Source: Puniceicoccaceae bacterium K14 (lineage in GTDB: Bacteria > Verrucomicrobiota > Verrucomicrobiia > Opitutales > Opitutaceae). Taken from it: a stretch of 46,051 nt of DNA. Every line of letters begins with the position of its first letter. Position 1 is the stretch's first letter. Shown here in pieces: positions 2,708 through 25,123 of this stretch. Where the stretch lies: the NCBI GenBank assembly GCA_022538095.1, contig JAKYXN010000042.1, positions 1-46,051 of the forward strand, in the 5' to 3' direction. The translations under genes were made by a program, and so were the position numbers. The notes beneath the pieces are model-generated. The model ran no database searches, was not told where the DNA came from, and saw nothing but the letters and a program-made list of their open reading frames with translations.

Positions 2708-4224
2708 AGCGATTGTCCGATTGCTGCGCCAATAAGCGCCTCTTGATTAAATTCTTCTTTTGCAAATTCCCCGCCAATGCGTCCCTCAAATAGCATCATA
2801 ATTCGATCGCTCATTCCCATAAGCTCAGGCAACTCGCTCGATACGAGAACAACCGCTTTCCCTTCATCCGTTAATCGATTTATCAACTCATAGACCTCTA
2901 ACTTGGCGCCCACATCTATTCCTCGCGTCGGCTCATCCAGAAATATCACTTCAGGCTCGGATAGCAAAGCCTTACCCAAAACTACTTTTTGCTGATTACC
3001 TCCTGATAATGTTCCGGTAACCGTCTCTAAACTTGGCGCTTTTACGCGAAGCTGCCTGGAGGTTTTTTCGTTTTTTTGAAATTCTTTATTCGTATCCATT
3101 TTTCCAACTTTATTGGAAATAGAATCAAGAGACGAAAGTGAAAAATTGAAATTATTGGACTGCTCAATCACAAGTCCGAAGCGTTTTCGATCTTCAGACA
3201 CGAGAACCATTCCCGCTTCGATAGCTGCCTGTGGACTTTGCCCCTCATAACTTTTTCCGTGTAACGCGACACTCCCTTCCTCGCGTTCTCCATAAGCTCC
3301 CATGATATGCATCAACGTTTCTGTACGCCCCGCGCCCATCAAACCGCCCAAGCCTAACACTTCTCCCTTTCTAACCGAAAAAGATATACCCTGTAAGTCG
3401 ATAGCATCCTCTGGTCCCTTAACCGAAAGCCCTCTAACTTCCAATAGGTTCTCTCCACAAGCGCTCTTGCGTCGAGGAAACAAATCATCGATTTCACGGC
3501 CCACCATTAACTGAATAACCTCGGCTGCGGTAGTCTCCGAAGTTTCAAGCGTTTTGATAGTGTGCCCATCCCGCAATACCGTAATGCGATCTGAAATGCT
3601 AAAGACTTCGTCGAGTTTATGGGAAATATAAATACACGCGATTCCTCGCTTTTTTAAATCGCGAAGCATCTCAATCAAGATATCGACTTCATGCTCCGTT
3701 AAAGCAGCCGTCGGCTCATCTAAGATCAAAATATGCGATTCCTTGCGGAGCGCTTTGACGATCTCGACAAGTTGCTGTTTTCCCACCCCGAGATCTCCCA
3801 CACGGGCAGTCGGGTCAATATCGATTTTGAAATGTCGCAACAACTCTGAAGTATCCGTGTACATTTTATTCCAATCGATGAGAACACCCATCATCGGCTC
3901 ATGTCCTAGATAAATATTCTCGGCGACTGTCATGTCATTGACTAACGCTAGCTCTTGATAAATCACCGCGATTCCAGCCAATTCAGCATCTTTGATACCT
4001 TGAAAGTTAGCTTCGGTTCCATCGACGAAAAATGCTCCGTCGTAAGTGCCCTGTGCCCAAATTCCGGATAAAATTTTGATCAAGGTCGATTTACCCGCTC
4101 CATTTTCTCCGCACAGCGCATGTACTTCGCCTTTCGCCAGATCAAACCCCACCTCACTCAGCGCTTTCACACCAGGAAAGGTTTTGCTCACTTTTTTCGC
4201 GTGGAGTACGACGTTTTCTTTCAT
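2704..4224 (-). CDS. xylG: D-xylose ABC transporter ATP-binding protein XylG
   Basis: The 506-residue protein has two fused ABC ATPase domains, as in the RbsA/XylG/MglA class. The first domain has a good Walker A (GENGAGKST, about 39-47), a signature region and Walker B (ILILDEPTAALT). The second keeps LSGGNQQKVVLGKAL and VIFLDEPTRGID. Its P-loop is the altered GLMGAGRTE, which is normal for this family. The stretch LCGENGAGKSTLIKILSGIW followed by GIAVIYQELALVNDMTVAENI is closest to E. coli XylG (GIAIIHQELALVKELTVLENI). It powers sugar uptake through XylH using sugar delivered by XylF. It lies 26 bases downstream of xylF and overlaps xylH. Confidence 0.9.
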   Translation of the reverse strand: MKENVVLHAKKVSKTFPGVKALSEVGFDLAKGEVHALCGENGAGKSTLIKILSGIWAQGTYDGAFFVDGTEANFQGIKDAELAGIAVIYQELALVNDMTVAENIYLGHEPMMGVLIDWNKMYTDTSELLRHFKIDIDPTARVGDLGVGKQQLVEIVKALRKESHILILDEPTAALTEHEVDILIEMLRDLKKRGIACIYISHKLDEVFSISDRITVLRDGHTIKTLETSETTAAEVIQLMVGREIDDLFPRRKSACGENLLEVRGLSVKGPEDAIDLQGISFSVRKGEVLGLGGLMGAGRTETLMHIMGAYGEREEGSVALHGKSYEGQSPQAAIEAGMVLVSEDRKRFGLVIEQSNNFNFSLSSLDSISNKVGKMDTNKEFQKNEKTSRQLRVKAPSLETVTGTLSGGNQQKVVLGKALLSEPEVIFLDEPTRGIDVGAKLEVYELINRLTDEGKAVVLVSSELPELMGMSDRIMMLFEGRIGGEFAKEEFNQEALIGAAIGQSL

Positions 4225-20943: not shown

Positions 20944-22212
20944 CTACTCTAGATCAATTAAAGAGGCGTATTCTGGATCGTACAAACGCTTATAGATTCT
21001 CAACGCTTGACCGTCTGTGAGGCTAGCGAGGTAATCACGCACAATTAGCCACTTATCATCGCTCTGCGAATTCTTTATAAGATTCGCTGTCATTTCAGGA
21101 AGTATGGCGAACGAAGAAGATCTTCTTTCGCCCAAATAACAATCGCGTAAGGCTTCAAATATTCCAACCAGTATCTTATCGCCTTTGTAGTCCATTTGCT
21201 GCAAAGGCGCAGACTTAAAAATCAAATCAAACGCTAGCTTTTTGTAGAACCGCGCCTGGCTCTTAATCTCGCTACCTACAACCAAATTGAAGGCGTATCG
21301 GTTCGACTCCTGAGAAAGGGCATTATCCGCACGAACGAGTTTACAGGCACCGATAAATGCCCCGATTTTAGTGCCAAATACCGCCTCAAGCCGGTCCCTT
21401 CGAATATCGTTAACAAATCGCTCGAATATTGGCTGAGTTTCGGCAGTCAGCCCGTTCTTCTCCGCCCAGTTTTCCAATCTTTCCACCGTAATGAAACGAG
21501 CGCGAACACCATCTACGATATCATTGATACAATAAGCGGTATCGTCTGACCAATCCATGATCTGGCACTCGATACTCGAATACTGACTAAATGCGCCTGC
21601 TTTCTGCCTCCCTTGTAATTCGTGGGCTCTTTCATGGGCAAAATCACGGTACTGTAGTTGGAAATCGTATATGAAATGATTACTTGGGCTGTCCAATTCG
21701 CTGTACAGATTCTTATATTTTAGAATGCCATCAATAAAACTGCGCGTAGGAGTCATACCATCCTGCCTACTTGGCGATTGGTATAAGGTCTCTGTCAATA
21801 GCCTCAAGGTTTGAGCATTTCCTTCAAAGCCTCCTTTATCCTTAAACAATCGATGCAAGGTTTTCTCGCCCCCATGACCGAAAGGAGGATGCCCTAAATC
21901 ATGGCTTAAACAGGTCGCCTCTACAAGATCAGAGTCAATGTAGAACGAGTCCTCAAGGTGCTCGCTCTTTGCCTTCAATGCATGGCAAATAGAACGGCCA
22001 ATTTGAGCTACTTCAATAGAATGAGTCAGTCGCGTTCTATAAAAATCATACTCTCCCGAAAGATAAACCTGAGTTTTCGACTGCAACTTGCGAAAAGCAG
22101 ACGAATGAATAACTCGATCCCGATCAACTTGAAAAGCAGATCGATAATCCTTTGGGCGGCTCCCTTTCAAGGTTTGAAGATCGTACTCATTATAAAATTT
22201 ATTTTCGCTCAT
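20944..22212 (-). CDS. dgt: dGTP triphosphohydrolase (dGTPase family, HD domain)
   Basis: The 422-residue protein has the HD-domain phosphohydrolase signature in order: RDRVIHSSAFRKLQSKTQV, then TRLTHSIEVAQIGRSI (His64). CLSHDLGHPPFGHGGE (His104-Asp105 and following histidines) is next, and then GGFEGNAQTLRLLT. These are the metal ligands and the substrate-binding segment of dGTPases, which convert dGTP to deoxyguanosine and tripolyphosphate and so help balance dNTP pools. The length is closer to the deoxyguanosinetriphosphate triphosphohydrolase-like group than to the 505-residue E. coli Dgt, so substrate breadth may differ. It is divergent from the thioredoxin-like gene. A dCTPase-like MazG protein encoded nearby (24586-24942) is another nucleotide house-cleaner. 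Confidence 0.9.
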   Translation of the reverse strand: MSENKFYNEYDLQTLKGSRPKDYRSAFQVDRDRVIHSSAFRKLQSKTQVYLSGEYDFYRTRLTHSIEVAQIGRSICHALKAKSEHLEDSFYIDSDLVEATCLSHDLGHPPFGHGGEKTLHRLFKDKGGFEGNAQTLRLLTETLYQSPSRQDGMTPTRSFIDGILKYKNLYSELDSPSNHFIYDFQLQYRDFAHERAHELQGRQKAGAFSQYSSIECQIMDWSDDTAYCINDIVDGVRARFITVERLENWAEKNGLTAETQPIFERFVNDIRRDRLEAVFGTKIGAFIGACKLVRADNALSQESNRYAFNLVVGSEIKSQARFYKKLAFDLIFKSAPLQQMDYKGDKILVGIFEALRDCYLGERRSSSFAILPEMTANLIKNSQSDDKWLIVRDYLASLTDGQALRIYKRLYDPEYASLIDLE

Positions 22213-22804: not shown

Positions 22805-22836
22805 AAAAAAGCGACCTCACAAGAGGTCGCCTTTTT
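22805..22836. terminator. Bidirectional intrinsic terminator between the thioredoxin-like gene and glyA
   Basis: GCGACCTC-acaa-GAGGTCGC is a perfect 8-bp stem (22811-22830). It is flanked by an A-run on the left and a T-run on the right, so it can stop transcripts from both convergent genes. Confidence 0.92.
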
Positions 22837-22855: not shown

Positions 22856-24385
22856 TTAAGCGCAGAAATGCTTTTTCAAAAACGCTAAATCGATTTCTGG
22901 ATACAGAACGAATTTGTCGAGCAAAGCCTTTACGCGGCCTTTAGCTTCCTCGCTGACACCCTCAGTAATGGTAAACTTAACCTTGCTTGCCTTTCCTGCA
23001 TTCTTACCGCTACTTAAAATCACAGGCTTCGTATTAGATAGGATCAGTTTGAAAATAGAGGCAATTTCCTTCATTTCCTCAACACCCATCCCCAAAGAAG
23101 TAATCGCAGGCGTTCCAACACGCAATCCACTTGTATACCAAGGGCCGTTTACATCGAAAGGAAGCGAATTACGGTTCAAGGTAATACCTGCCTCACGCAC
23201 GGCATTCTCCGCCTGACGACCGTTCAAACCAAACGGAGTCACGTCGATAAGCAACAAATGGTTGTCCGTACCACCAGAAGCAACAGTCAAGCCTTGAGCC
23301 ACCATTTCCTCTGCCATTGCGTTTGAGTTTTCTACAATTTTGGACGCATACTCCTTAAACCCTGACGAATTTGCCTCTTTGAAAGCGATCGCTTTTGCAG
23401 CCATCATATGCGGTAATGGTCCACCAATTACGAGCGGGCATCCTTTATCGACAAACTCAGCAAACTCTTCCTTACAAAGCACGATTCCACCACGTGGCCC
23501 ACGAAGGGTTTTGTGCGTAGTAGATGTGACAACATCCGCAAATGGGAATGGATTGTAATCACCTTGAAAAACACCGCCAGCAACAAGACCAGCAAAGTGG
23601 GCCATATCGACCATGAGCACTGCTCCTACCTTGTCTGCGATTTCTTTCATGCGGCGGAAGTCCATTTTTCTTGGATACGCACTGTAACCGGCAAGGAGGA
23701 TCAATGGCTTGATCTCGATCGCTTGCTTCTCCAACTCGTCGTAATCAAGAAGCCCCGTTTCCTTGCTAACTGCATAGCTGTATGCATCGAAGAATTGAGC
23801 CGATACGTTTTGACGGTAACCATGAGTTAAATGCCCTCCGGAATAATAATCCAAGCCTAGCATCTTTTGATTACCCATGCTGTTACGAATCTTATTCCAG
23901 TCGTCGCGGGAGAGCTTTGCTGGGTTTGTTTCGCCTAAGGCTTCCATTTCAGGAACACCCACCCGAGCTTGAAGGATCGCCCAAAATGCAATCATATTTG
24001 CATCCGCGCCCGAGTGAGGTTGGACATAAGCGTGTTCCGCTCCAAAAAGCTCGCAGGCTTCTTTCGATGCTGCTGCTTCGATCGAGTCAATATTGTCGCA
24101 ACCCGCATAAAAGCGAGATCCCGCAAAACCCTCGGCGTATTTGTCGGTCAACAAATTCCCCATCGCTGCTTGGGTGTTCAGAGACGTGTAATTTTCTGAA
24201 GCAATTAGCTTCAAATGACTACGCTGGTCTTCCAACTCCTTGACGATAGAAGCGGAAATCTCTGGATTTACTGCAGCGACTTGCTGCAAATTGCATACAT
24301 AAGACAGGAATCCGGCATCTACCGAATCTGGCGTGTTATCAGAAAGATAACTTTCGACGGCTGTAGTGGCTTGAATCAGTGACAT
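22856..24385 (-). CDS. glyA: Serine hydroxymethyltransferase, long form
   Basis: The 509-residue PLP enzyme interconverts serine and glycine, loading one-carbon units on tetrahydrofolate. The core is unmistakable: LIASENYTS (57-68), TDKYAEGFAGSRFYAGC, YVQPHSGADANM, and the Schiff-base lysine in TSTTHKTLRGPRGG (Lys292). VDMAHFAGLVAGG and TSGLRVGTPAITS are also present. Most bacterial GlyA proteins have about 415-430 residues. This one has an extra N-terminal stretch of about 40 residues and an insertion around 143-175 (GVPEMEALGETNPAKLSRDDW). A form of about 497 residues is known from Chlamydia, supporting a PVC-group origin. The leader carries a candidate ZTP riboswitch, which fits the folate/one-carbon role. 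Confidence 0.95.
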   Translation of the reverse strand: MSLIQATTAVESYLSDNTPDSVDAGFLSYVCNLQQVAAVNPEISASIVKELEDQRSHLKLIASENYTSLNTQAAMGNLLTDKYAEGFAGSRFYAGCDNIDSIEAAASKEACELFGAEHAYVQPHSGADANMIAFWAILQARVGVPEMEALGETNPAKLSRDDWNKIRNSMGNQKMLGLDYYSGGHLTHGYRQNVSAQFFDAYSYAVSKETGLLDYDELEKQAIEIKPLILLAGYSAYPRKMDFRRMKEIADKVGAVLMVDMAHFAGLVAGGVFQGDYNPFPFADVVTSTTHKTLRGPRGGIVLCKEEFAEFVDKGCPLVIGGPLPHMMAAKAIAFKEANSSGFKEYASKIVENSNAMAEEMVAQGLTVASGGTDNHLLLIDVTPFGLNGRQAENAVREAGITLNRNSLPFDVNGPWYTSGLRVGTPAITSLGMGVEEMKEIASIFKLILSNTKPVILSSGKNAGKASKVKFTITEGVSEEAKGRVKALLDKFVLYPEIDLAFLKKHFCA

Positions 24386-24424
24386 AAATGGAAGCTTTCT
24401 CTTAAAAAATAAGATGATGTAACG

Positions 24425-24505
24425 AAGGTCCTACCCAGGCGCACGATAGAACAGATAAGCTTCCCAGCGGTCAATCCCGCCTTTGCATCGCCAGTCGCAA
24501 AATTG
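24425..24505 (-). promoter_or_regulatory. Candidate ZTP (pfl) riboswitch in the glyA leader
   Basis: Read on the minus strand, the leader holds the conserved blocks of the pfl/ZTP aptamer in the right order. GACTGGCG lies at 24496-24489. A hairpin GGCGG-GATTGA-CCGCT follows and leads straight into GGGAAGC (24465-24459, consensus GGGGAGC). After a linker comes CGCCTGGGTA (24441-24432, consensus CGCCUGGGCA). The P1 helix is only weakly supported by eye. GGAAGCTT (24464-24457) is complementary to AAGCTTCC (24397-24390), just before the glyA start codon, which suggests a switchable expression platform. ZTP riboswitches sense the folate-stress alarmone ZTP/ZMP and commonly control glyA, folD and purH. 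Confidence 0.8.
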
Positions 24506-24585
24506 AAACAAATTGGATGCTCGTTCCGCCCTTCCCTGTCAATGCTTGTTGCGTCGCAAATGCTAAGAAAAGTTACAGAATCAAG

Positions 24586-24942
24586 CTAGAGCTGATCGTA
24601 TTTATCCGAACGCCCCTTGGATTTCTCCACTGGATACTTTGCTGCGTTTATTTTCATCTTACGGTGGATCACTTCTGAAACGTCGATACCTGAACGGTTA
24701 GCGAAATGGAGGGCATAAATAATGATATCCGCCAGCTCCTCGCCCACTGCATTCTTAGACTTCTCAACCAATTCAAAAGACTCTCCTCCACCGCACCACA
24801 AAAAGTGCTCCATCAACTCGGCTGCTTCTCCTGCCAGGGCCATTGATAGGTTTTTTGGGTTGTGAAATTGAGCCCACTCTCTCTCCGCCACAAAGTCACG
24901 AGCCAGCACCTTTAGGCTCTCAATCGTTGTTTCTTCATCCAT
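24586..24942 (-). CDS. MazG-like nucleotide pyrophosphohydrolase (dCTP pyrophosphatase/RS21-C6 type)
   Basis: The protein has 118 residues from the ATG at 24942 (MDEETTIESLKVL). An in-frame start at 24975 would add 11 unconserved residues. The all-alpha NTP-PPase motifs are present: REWAQFHNPKNLSMALAGEAAELMEHFLW gives the ExxE pair and the tryptophan, and GEELADIIIYALHFAN gives the ExxD pair that binds magnesium. The arrangement W.QFH.P.NL is typical of mammalian DCTPP1 and its bacterial relatives, which hydrolyse dCTP and modified dCTPs. It is a house-cleaning enzyme of the nucleotide pool. It lies upstream of glyA on the same strand with the riboswitch leader between them. Confidence 0.85.
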   Translation of the reverse strand: MDEETTIESLKVLARDFVAEREWAQFHNPKNLSMALAGEAAELMEHFLWCGGGESFELVEKSKNAVGEELADIIIYALHFANRSGIDVSEVIHRKMKINAAKYPVEKSKGRSDKYDQL

Positions 24943-25123
24943 GGCGAATAGCAAATAGACGAAGCGATCGTCCAAAGGAAGTCGATTCCCTTCGCTTAGA
25001 AAAAAATGCCTTAATTAAGCACTCAAGCAAACGAACTGATTCTCCTAAGAGTTGAATCGGCGGAAATCTTACGTTTTTGCTATTGCTTGTAAAAAATCTG
25101 ATGCCAATAAACGACGGCTTCGA

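Follow-up and report, generated by a model that had tools for sequence, protein, structure and literature searches.

A ZTP riboswitch whose ligand-binding core may mask the start region of a glyA gene lacking a Shine-Dalgarno motif

The ZTP class of riboswitches, its target gene glyA and its ON logic are already known (PMC2864571, PMC7266159). In the accessible parts of the published work, transcriptional members are described in which, without ligand, a terminator strand invades helix P3 and the pseudoknot (PMC10085676, PMC7337938); covariation models of whole ZTP riboswitches reported in 2026 were built from terminator-bearing sequences (PMC13273304), and a Pectobacterium ZTP riboswitch has been placed in a translational lacZ fusion (PMC10117056). 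Strand-exchange translational riboswitches, as set out in the available text of PMC10907184, use one strand in common for the aptamer and for a mask over the ribosome site.

The locus described here resembles the ZTP switches of Clostridium beijerinckii (pfl), Fusobacterium ulcerans and Thermosinus carboxydivorans in its aptamer blocks, helices P2 and P3 and pseudoknot strands, and like them it has a one-carbon/purine target gene and an expected ON logic. Unlike those transcriptional switches, it has a vestigial helix P1 and no terminator was found in it; the competing strand would be the start region of the gene and the strand taken would be the junction and 3′ P1 strand, rather than a terminator strand invading P3 and the pseudoknot. 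One strand common to aptamer and mask would be a feature shared with the strand-exchange riboswitches, although, as far as the available text of that source goes, the present case differs from them generally in that the start to be masked lacks a Shine-Dalgarno (SD) motif and the near-invariant ligand-binding core itself would serve as the common strand.

The window, meaning the whole stretch of DNA analysed, comprises 46,051 nucleotides (positions 1 to 46,051 of contig JAKYXN010000042.1, Puniceicoccaceae bacterium K14). The features on which the analysis turns, with the evidence for each in brackets, are these:

22856 to 24385, minus strand: glyA, long-form serine/glycine hydroxymethyltransferase (SHMT), 509 aa, ATG at 24385-24383 (NF010094, 788.9 bits against a cut-off of 735; Pfam SHMT)
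24426 to 24508, minus strand: ZMP/ZTP riboswitch aptamer, RF01750 (cmscan, 43.1 bits against a gathering score of 39)
24489 to 24492, minus strand: pseudoknot strand GGCG, within CTGGCG (sequence; invariant in 25 of 25 leaders)
24438 to 24441, minus strand: pseudoknot partner CGCC, in the P3 loop (sequence; invariant in 25 of 25 leaders)
24466 to 24481, minus strand: helix P2, hairpin GGCGG/CCGCT (Rfam match and folding)
24429 to 24451, minus strand: helix P3, hairpin TTCTATC/GGTAGGA (Rfam match and folding; sequence)
24497 to 24498, minus strand: GC forming the 5′ side of the two continuous P1 pairs, opposite GC at 24459-24460 (Rfam match, leader comparison)
24457 to 24464, minus strand: core strand GGAAGCTT, which supplies the aptamer junction and the 3′ side of P1 and is proposed to mask the start region (sequence, pairing comparison)
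24390 to 24397, minus strand: start-region segment AAGCTTCC, complementary to the core strand, 4 nt 5′ of the ATG (sequence, pairing comparison)
24537 to 24542, minus strand: TTGACA, candidate −35 element, 44 nt 5′ of the core-opening GCGA (leader comparison; putative promoter role)

The closest GlyA among the matches listed is that of L062, an Opitutales MAG, with 78% protein identity. Long-form GlyA is the single match to the GlyA query in each of five long-form genomes in a search of 57 genomes of relatives, and the switch therefore probably governs the main or only cellular SHMT. Immediately upstream of the riboswitch lies a gene for a MazG-like nucleotide pyrophosphohydrolase (24586-24975, minus strand; Pfam PF12643), and downstream of glyA one for an HD-domain dGTPase (20944-22212, minus strand), whose top NCBIfam match is the anti-phage dGTPase NF041026 at 348.9 bits, below the cut-off of 400. 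A terminator-like hairpin, GCGACCTC/GAGGTCGC, at 22811-22830 separates a convergent thioredoxin-like gene from glyA.

When the whole window was compared with 4227 Rfam families, RF01750 was the sole family to reach its own gathering score anywhere; the match, at 24508-24426 on the minus strand, runs end to end (model positions 1-86 of 86; E = 7e-4). The 5.7 Mb genome contains one RF01750 match above the cut-off, the second listed match having 19 bits and an E-value of 2. Read along the minus strand from 24510 to 24383, the order is GCGACTGGCG, the P2 hairpin, GGGAAGCTT, the P3 hairpin with CGCCTGGG in its loop, a linker, AAGCTTCC and the glyA ATG, so that the hallmarks of the family (CTGGCG, GGGAAGC, CGCCTGGG, the complementary GGCG and CGCC, and helices P2 and P3) are all found. 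We take GGCG and CGCC to form the pseudoknot, as in published work on the class. The original prediction of a ZTP riboswitch ahead of long-form glyA had been built on the blocks GACTGGCG, the GGCGG/CCGCT hairpin running into GGGAAGC, and CGCCTGGGTA; all are present on the minus strand, and both the class and the gene assignment are borne out, RF01750 lying above its gathering score in the covariance-model search that had been suggested as a check and NF010094 above its cut-off. The stretch upstream of glyA is thus very probably a ZTP riboswitch, a sensor of folate shortage. The folding stability of the whole leader is ordinary (z of −1.08, with 25 of 200 shuffles folding at least as well), and folding energy alone is uninformative.

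Long-form glyA was found in 21 of the 372 genomes sampled from the order, and 19 of the 372 have an RF01750 match at E ≤0.02 (18 of these above the cut-off); all 19 belong to the 21. The long-form glyA leaders of G043 and G122 (genus g44) lack the aptamer blocks as judged by eye, and parts of loci L160 and L162, searched for inverted repeats, yielded none. At family level, 252 genomes gave 21 RF01750 matches, one of which (G411, 28.2 bits) was discarded as a chance match without the core, and a class-wide sample of 384 genomes gave six matches, all in the same order. Matches in short-form relatives (E 0.06-1) were taken as noise collectively rather than one by one. With L062 and L180 (G504), which have the same position and score, counted once, there are 27 distinct leaders: 20 from family f1 (one from genus g1, two from g12, eight from g19 and nine from g63), five from family f8 (g76) and two from family f4 (g40). 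The aptamer lies close upstream of the glyA start in all 27. The f4 aptamers (L003 of G039 and L144 of G097), from a third family of the same order, have the core GGGAGTC. Across the 25 f1 and f8 leaders the core blocks GCGACTGGCG, CTGGCG, GGAAGC and CGCCTGGG are invariant.

The weak P1 helix noted as a caveat in the original prediction is real: in the Rfam register five of the ten model pairs in the window are standard and five non-standard, the inner two being the only continuous ones, and this weakness is common to relatives outside genus g19. Just two continuous P1 pairs are present in 18 of the 25 leaders, that is, in all 17 outside g19 and in G018. Longer helices are seen in five leaders, all from g19: runs of 5-9 pairs in G377 (nine pairs), G500, G501 and G379, and in G356 a good P1 interrupted by a bulge. 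At the 5′ edge of three g63 leaders (L180, L148 and L181) UCGCGA could pair with UCGCGA past the core as a shifted alternative P1, which would bury the GA of the junction. TTGAC is found 36-51 nt upstream of the core-opening GCGA in 27 of 27 leaders, a figure that comes without a background rate, and no clear −10 consensus was found alongside it. If TTGAC serves as a −35 element, the transcript would begin near the aptamer, with scant space for the 5′ side of P1.

Because P1 is nearly absent, affinity for the ligand could be low, and an alternative is that the aptamer-like RNA, though conserved, binds ZMP poorly, the leader being a structured 5′ UTR or responding to some other signal. Although the two continuous P1 pairs of the window and of most of the leaders favour such a reading, it is unlikely, given the invariance of GCGACTGGCG, GGAAGC and CGCCTGGG in all 25 leaders and the place of glyA among the usual targets of the class, as reported in the accessible part of PMC2864571.

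The predicted complementarity of GGAAGCTT and AAGCTTCC was located on the minus strand as described, and in each of the 25 f1 and f8 leaders, which span five genera, a segment 2-15 nt 5′ of the glyA ATG complements the core strand GGAAGC(N); the competition proposed between aptamer and start region thus has its putative pairing partners in every one of these leaders, and conservation of the blocks and the pairing in glyA leaders of relatives, which had been named as a check, was found in 25 of 25. The core-linker helix comprises eight pairs in the window and 6-10 across the leaders, in some of which it includes a wobble, a mismatch or a bulge. Its start-region strand is exactly GCTTCC in 21 leaders and GCTTCT, GCTTCA (two) or GTTTCC in the others, and the remainder of the linker is poorly conserved in the leader alignment. 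Linkers pairing as well as the real one or better made up 0 to 0.030 of 1000 mononucleotide shuffles per leader, whereas in the f4 leaders G039 and G097 of the same order the pairing lies within the shuffles (fractions of 0.23 and 0.51 of 1000).

A ZTP riboswitch acting through transcription termination, as in C. beijerinckii, F. ulcerans and T. carboxydivorans, would follow the mechanism reported for the class in the parts of PMC10085676 and PMC7337938 accessible to us, and a T-rich stretch is present at 24404-24412. A consensus scan found no terminator-like minus-strand site between the aptamer and the gene (24385-24508), however, the T-rich stretch is not common to relatives in the alignment, and what is conserved downstream is a complement of the core and P1 strand, all of which make termination very unlikely here.

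Beyond its six-pair core the helix is extended differently in different leaders: by UU/AA in the window, by UUC/GAA in four leaders of g12 and g63, by GG/CC in most of g19, and by GGUU/AACC in four g19 leaders; the g76 leaders and five of those from g63 have no contiguous extension past six pairs. Cognate strands pair with a mean energy of −13.2 kcal/mol, against −11.4 for strands of different genera. In two of five genus rows (g1 and g19) no linker pairs better than the cognate one, and in g12, g63 and g76 the linker of another genus is better by 0.2-0.4 kcal/mol. MAFFT placed the start-region segment wrongly when whole leaders were aligned, so covariation was assessed on the two strands alone, in a trimmed alignment with 18 distinct rows. 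There, 77.8% of cells pair as against 73.4% in shuffles (9 of 500 reach the observed value), the score for covariation is 0.141 as against 0.087 (4 of 500 reach it), and sliding the partner strand lowers pairing to 27-49%; pairs changed on both sides number 4, compared with 3.9 in shuffles, and are not above chance. The six core positions are nearly invariant and hardly vary, so the covariation signal rests on the extension. Covariation is thus supportive of the core-linker helix and does not decide the matter, and kinship inflates the score.

Among 181 distinct ORFs taken from the fetched loci (ATG-started and of at least 150 aa), GCTTCC occurs no more than 20 nt from the ATG in 14, and all 14 are long-form glyA genes with the switch. 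That GCTTCC before the ATG is an independent translation or protein-binding signal, matching the aptamer core by coincidence, is highly improbable: the near-invariant six-base core does leave the pairing unproven by covariation alone, but the motif is absent from this position in the other 167 ORFs, the f4 leaders with their GGGAGTC core also lack it, the extension changes in step with the aptamer strand from g1 to g19, and GCTTCC-N(1-15)-ATG is no commoner in the window than chance would give (6 occurrences against 5.9 expected). It is the comparison across relatives, and not counts in the window, that places the pairing above chance.

SD-like motifs (GGAG, GAGG or AGGA in the last 20 nt) are absent from all 25 f1 and f8 leaders. 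The 32 listed ORFs of the window mostly have weak SD complementarity at their predicted starts, and some Verrucomicrobia are described as SD-scarce in the accessible part of PMC10783764. Outside the order, RF01750 reached threshold in 29 of 78 fetched loci (the best 80 of at least 585 candidates, with L062 and L063 excluded): 23 of 25 from Actinobacteria, three of three from Ktedonobacteria, one from Anaerolineae and two from Spirochaetota. These leaders from Actinobacteria, Chloroflexota and Spirochaetota have the same aptamer family and downstream protein family as the locus described here. Unlike the f1 and f8 leaders, all 29 have an SD-like motif, with start codons that were picked by hand and a count favoured by that choice in two (L103 and L113), because an SD-bearing start was taken over the first in-frame candidate. 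None of the 29 has core-linker pairing beyond shuffles at the 0.03 level, which was fixed after the 25 f1 and f8 values were known; the lowest fractions are 0.058 and 0.074 (500 shuffles).

Two Treponema leaders may be mentioned separately. In the ZTP-glyA leader of L073 (2893-3005), CUCCC directly after the core could pair with an SD-like GGGAG, a pairing that lies within shuffles (0.204). In L084, no more than about 100 nt upstream of position 3001, a ZTP-like leader can be read by eye ahead of glyA (CTGGCG ... GGGAAG ... CGTCTGGGC); RF01750 is not reported there at the Rfam gathering score.

From sequence comparison we conclude that the ZTP riboswitch is likely to be a translational ON-switch of glyA, in which the ribosome landing region would compete for the strand that forms the junction and the 3′ side of P1; ligand binding, the sign of control and translation as its level we infer from the class. 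Without ligand, the core strand GGAAGC(UU) would pair with the segment directly 5′ of the AUG, the resulting helix of about 6-10 pairs lying over the ribosome landing region of an SD-less message. Shortage of 10-formyl-THF would lead to accumulation of ZMP and ZTP, and the ligand would stabilise the pseudoknotted aptamer, which would occupy the same GGAAGC strand through the junction and inner P1 pairs and so free the start region. GlyA would then be made and feed one-carbon units into folate.

In ensemble folding without pseudoknots, the core-linker pairing is predicted with a probability above 0.5 in 24 of 25 leaders, the exception being G377 (0.11), and when the aptamer strands are blocked the mean accessibility of positions −14 to +6 rises from 0.47 to 0.64, with an increase in 23 of 25. 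The AUG triplet itself is not masked in the folding model (mean unpaired 0.61 free against 0.53 with the aptamer strands blocked). As accessibility rises for −14 to +6 and not for the AUG, the helix would cover the landing region upstream rather than the start codon.

A maximum-likelihood tree was built from 79 long-form GlyA proteins, with a midpoint root for drawing only. Of the 25 leader genomes from f1 and f8 it includes 17; the other eight, known from the family search only, come from genera that are represented. Four of 25 actinobacterial loci are included, and the Treponema row L084 bears its ZTP label on the strength of the by-eye reading. The f1 and f8 GlyA rows form one clade of 20 rows (support 100/100), inside which the switch-less rows G043 (L162), G122 (L160) and L063 are nested; the simplest reading of their missing switch is a loss within genus g44. 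The two f4 proteins fall outside this clade, next to a Hydrogenedentota protein (94/97). On balance, we favour the view that a lineage SD-less at glyA rebuilt its ZTP riboswitch: the start region would have become a near-exact complement of the ligand-binding core, P1 would have been largely dropped outside one genus, with the start-masking helix taking over from it as the conserved pairing for the core, and the platform would have arisen once and been kept with long-form glyA through five genera and two families.

The class and the target gene are known, and the unusual part is the expression platform. An SD-less platform with the core as mask was not met in the part of the literature that was accessible to the search, and it may have been described before. 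These leaders provide a natural comparative example of start-region control in an SD-less message with a ligand-binding core as the mask. With them, the minimum P1 that a ZTP aptamer requires becomes testable, as does riboswitch control of translation where there is no SD to hide.
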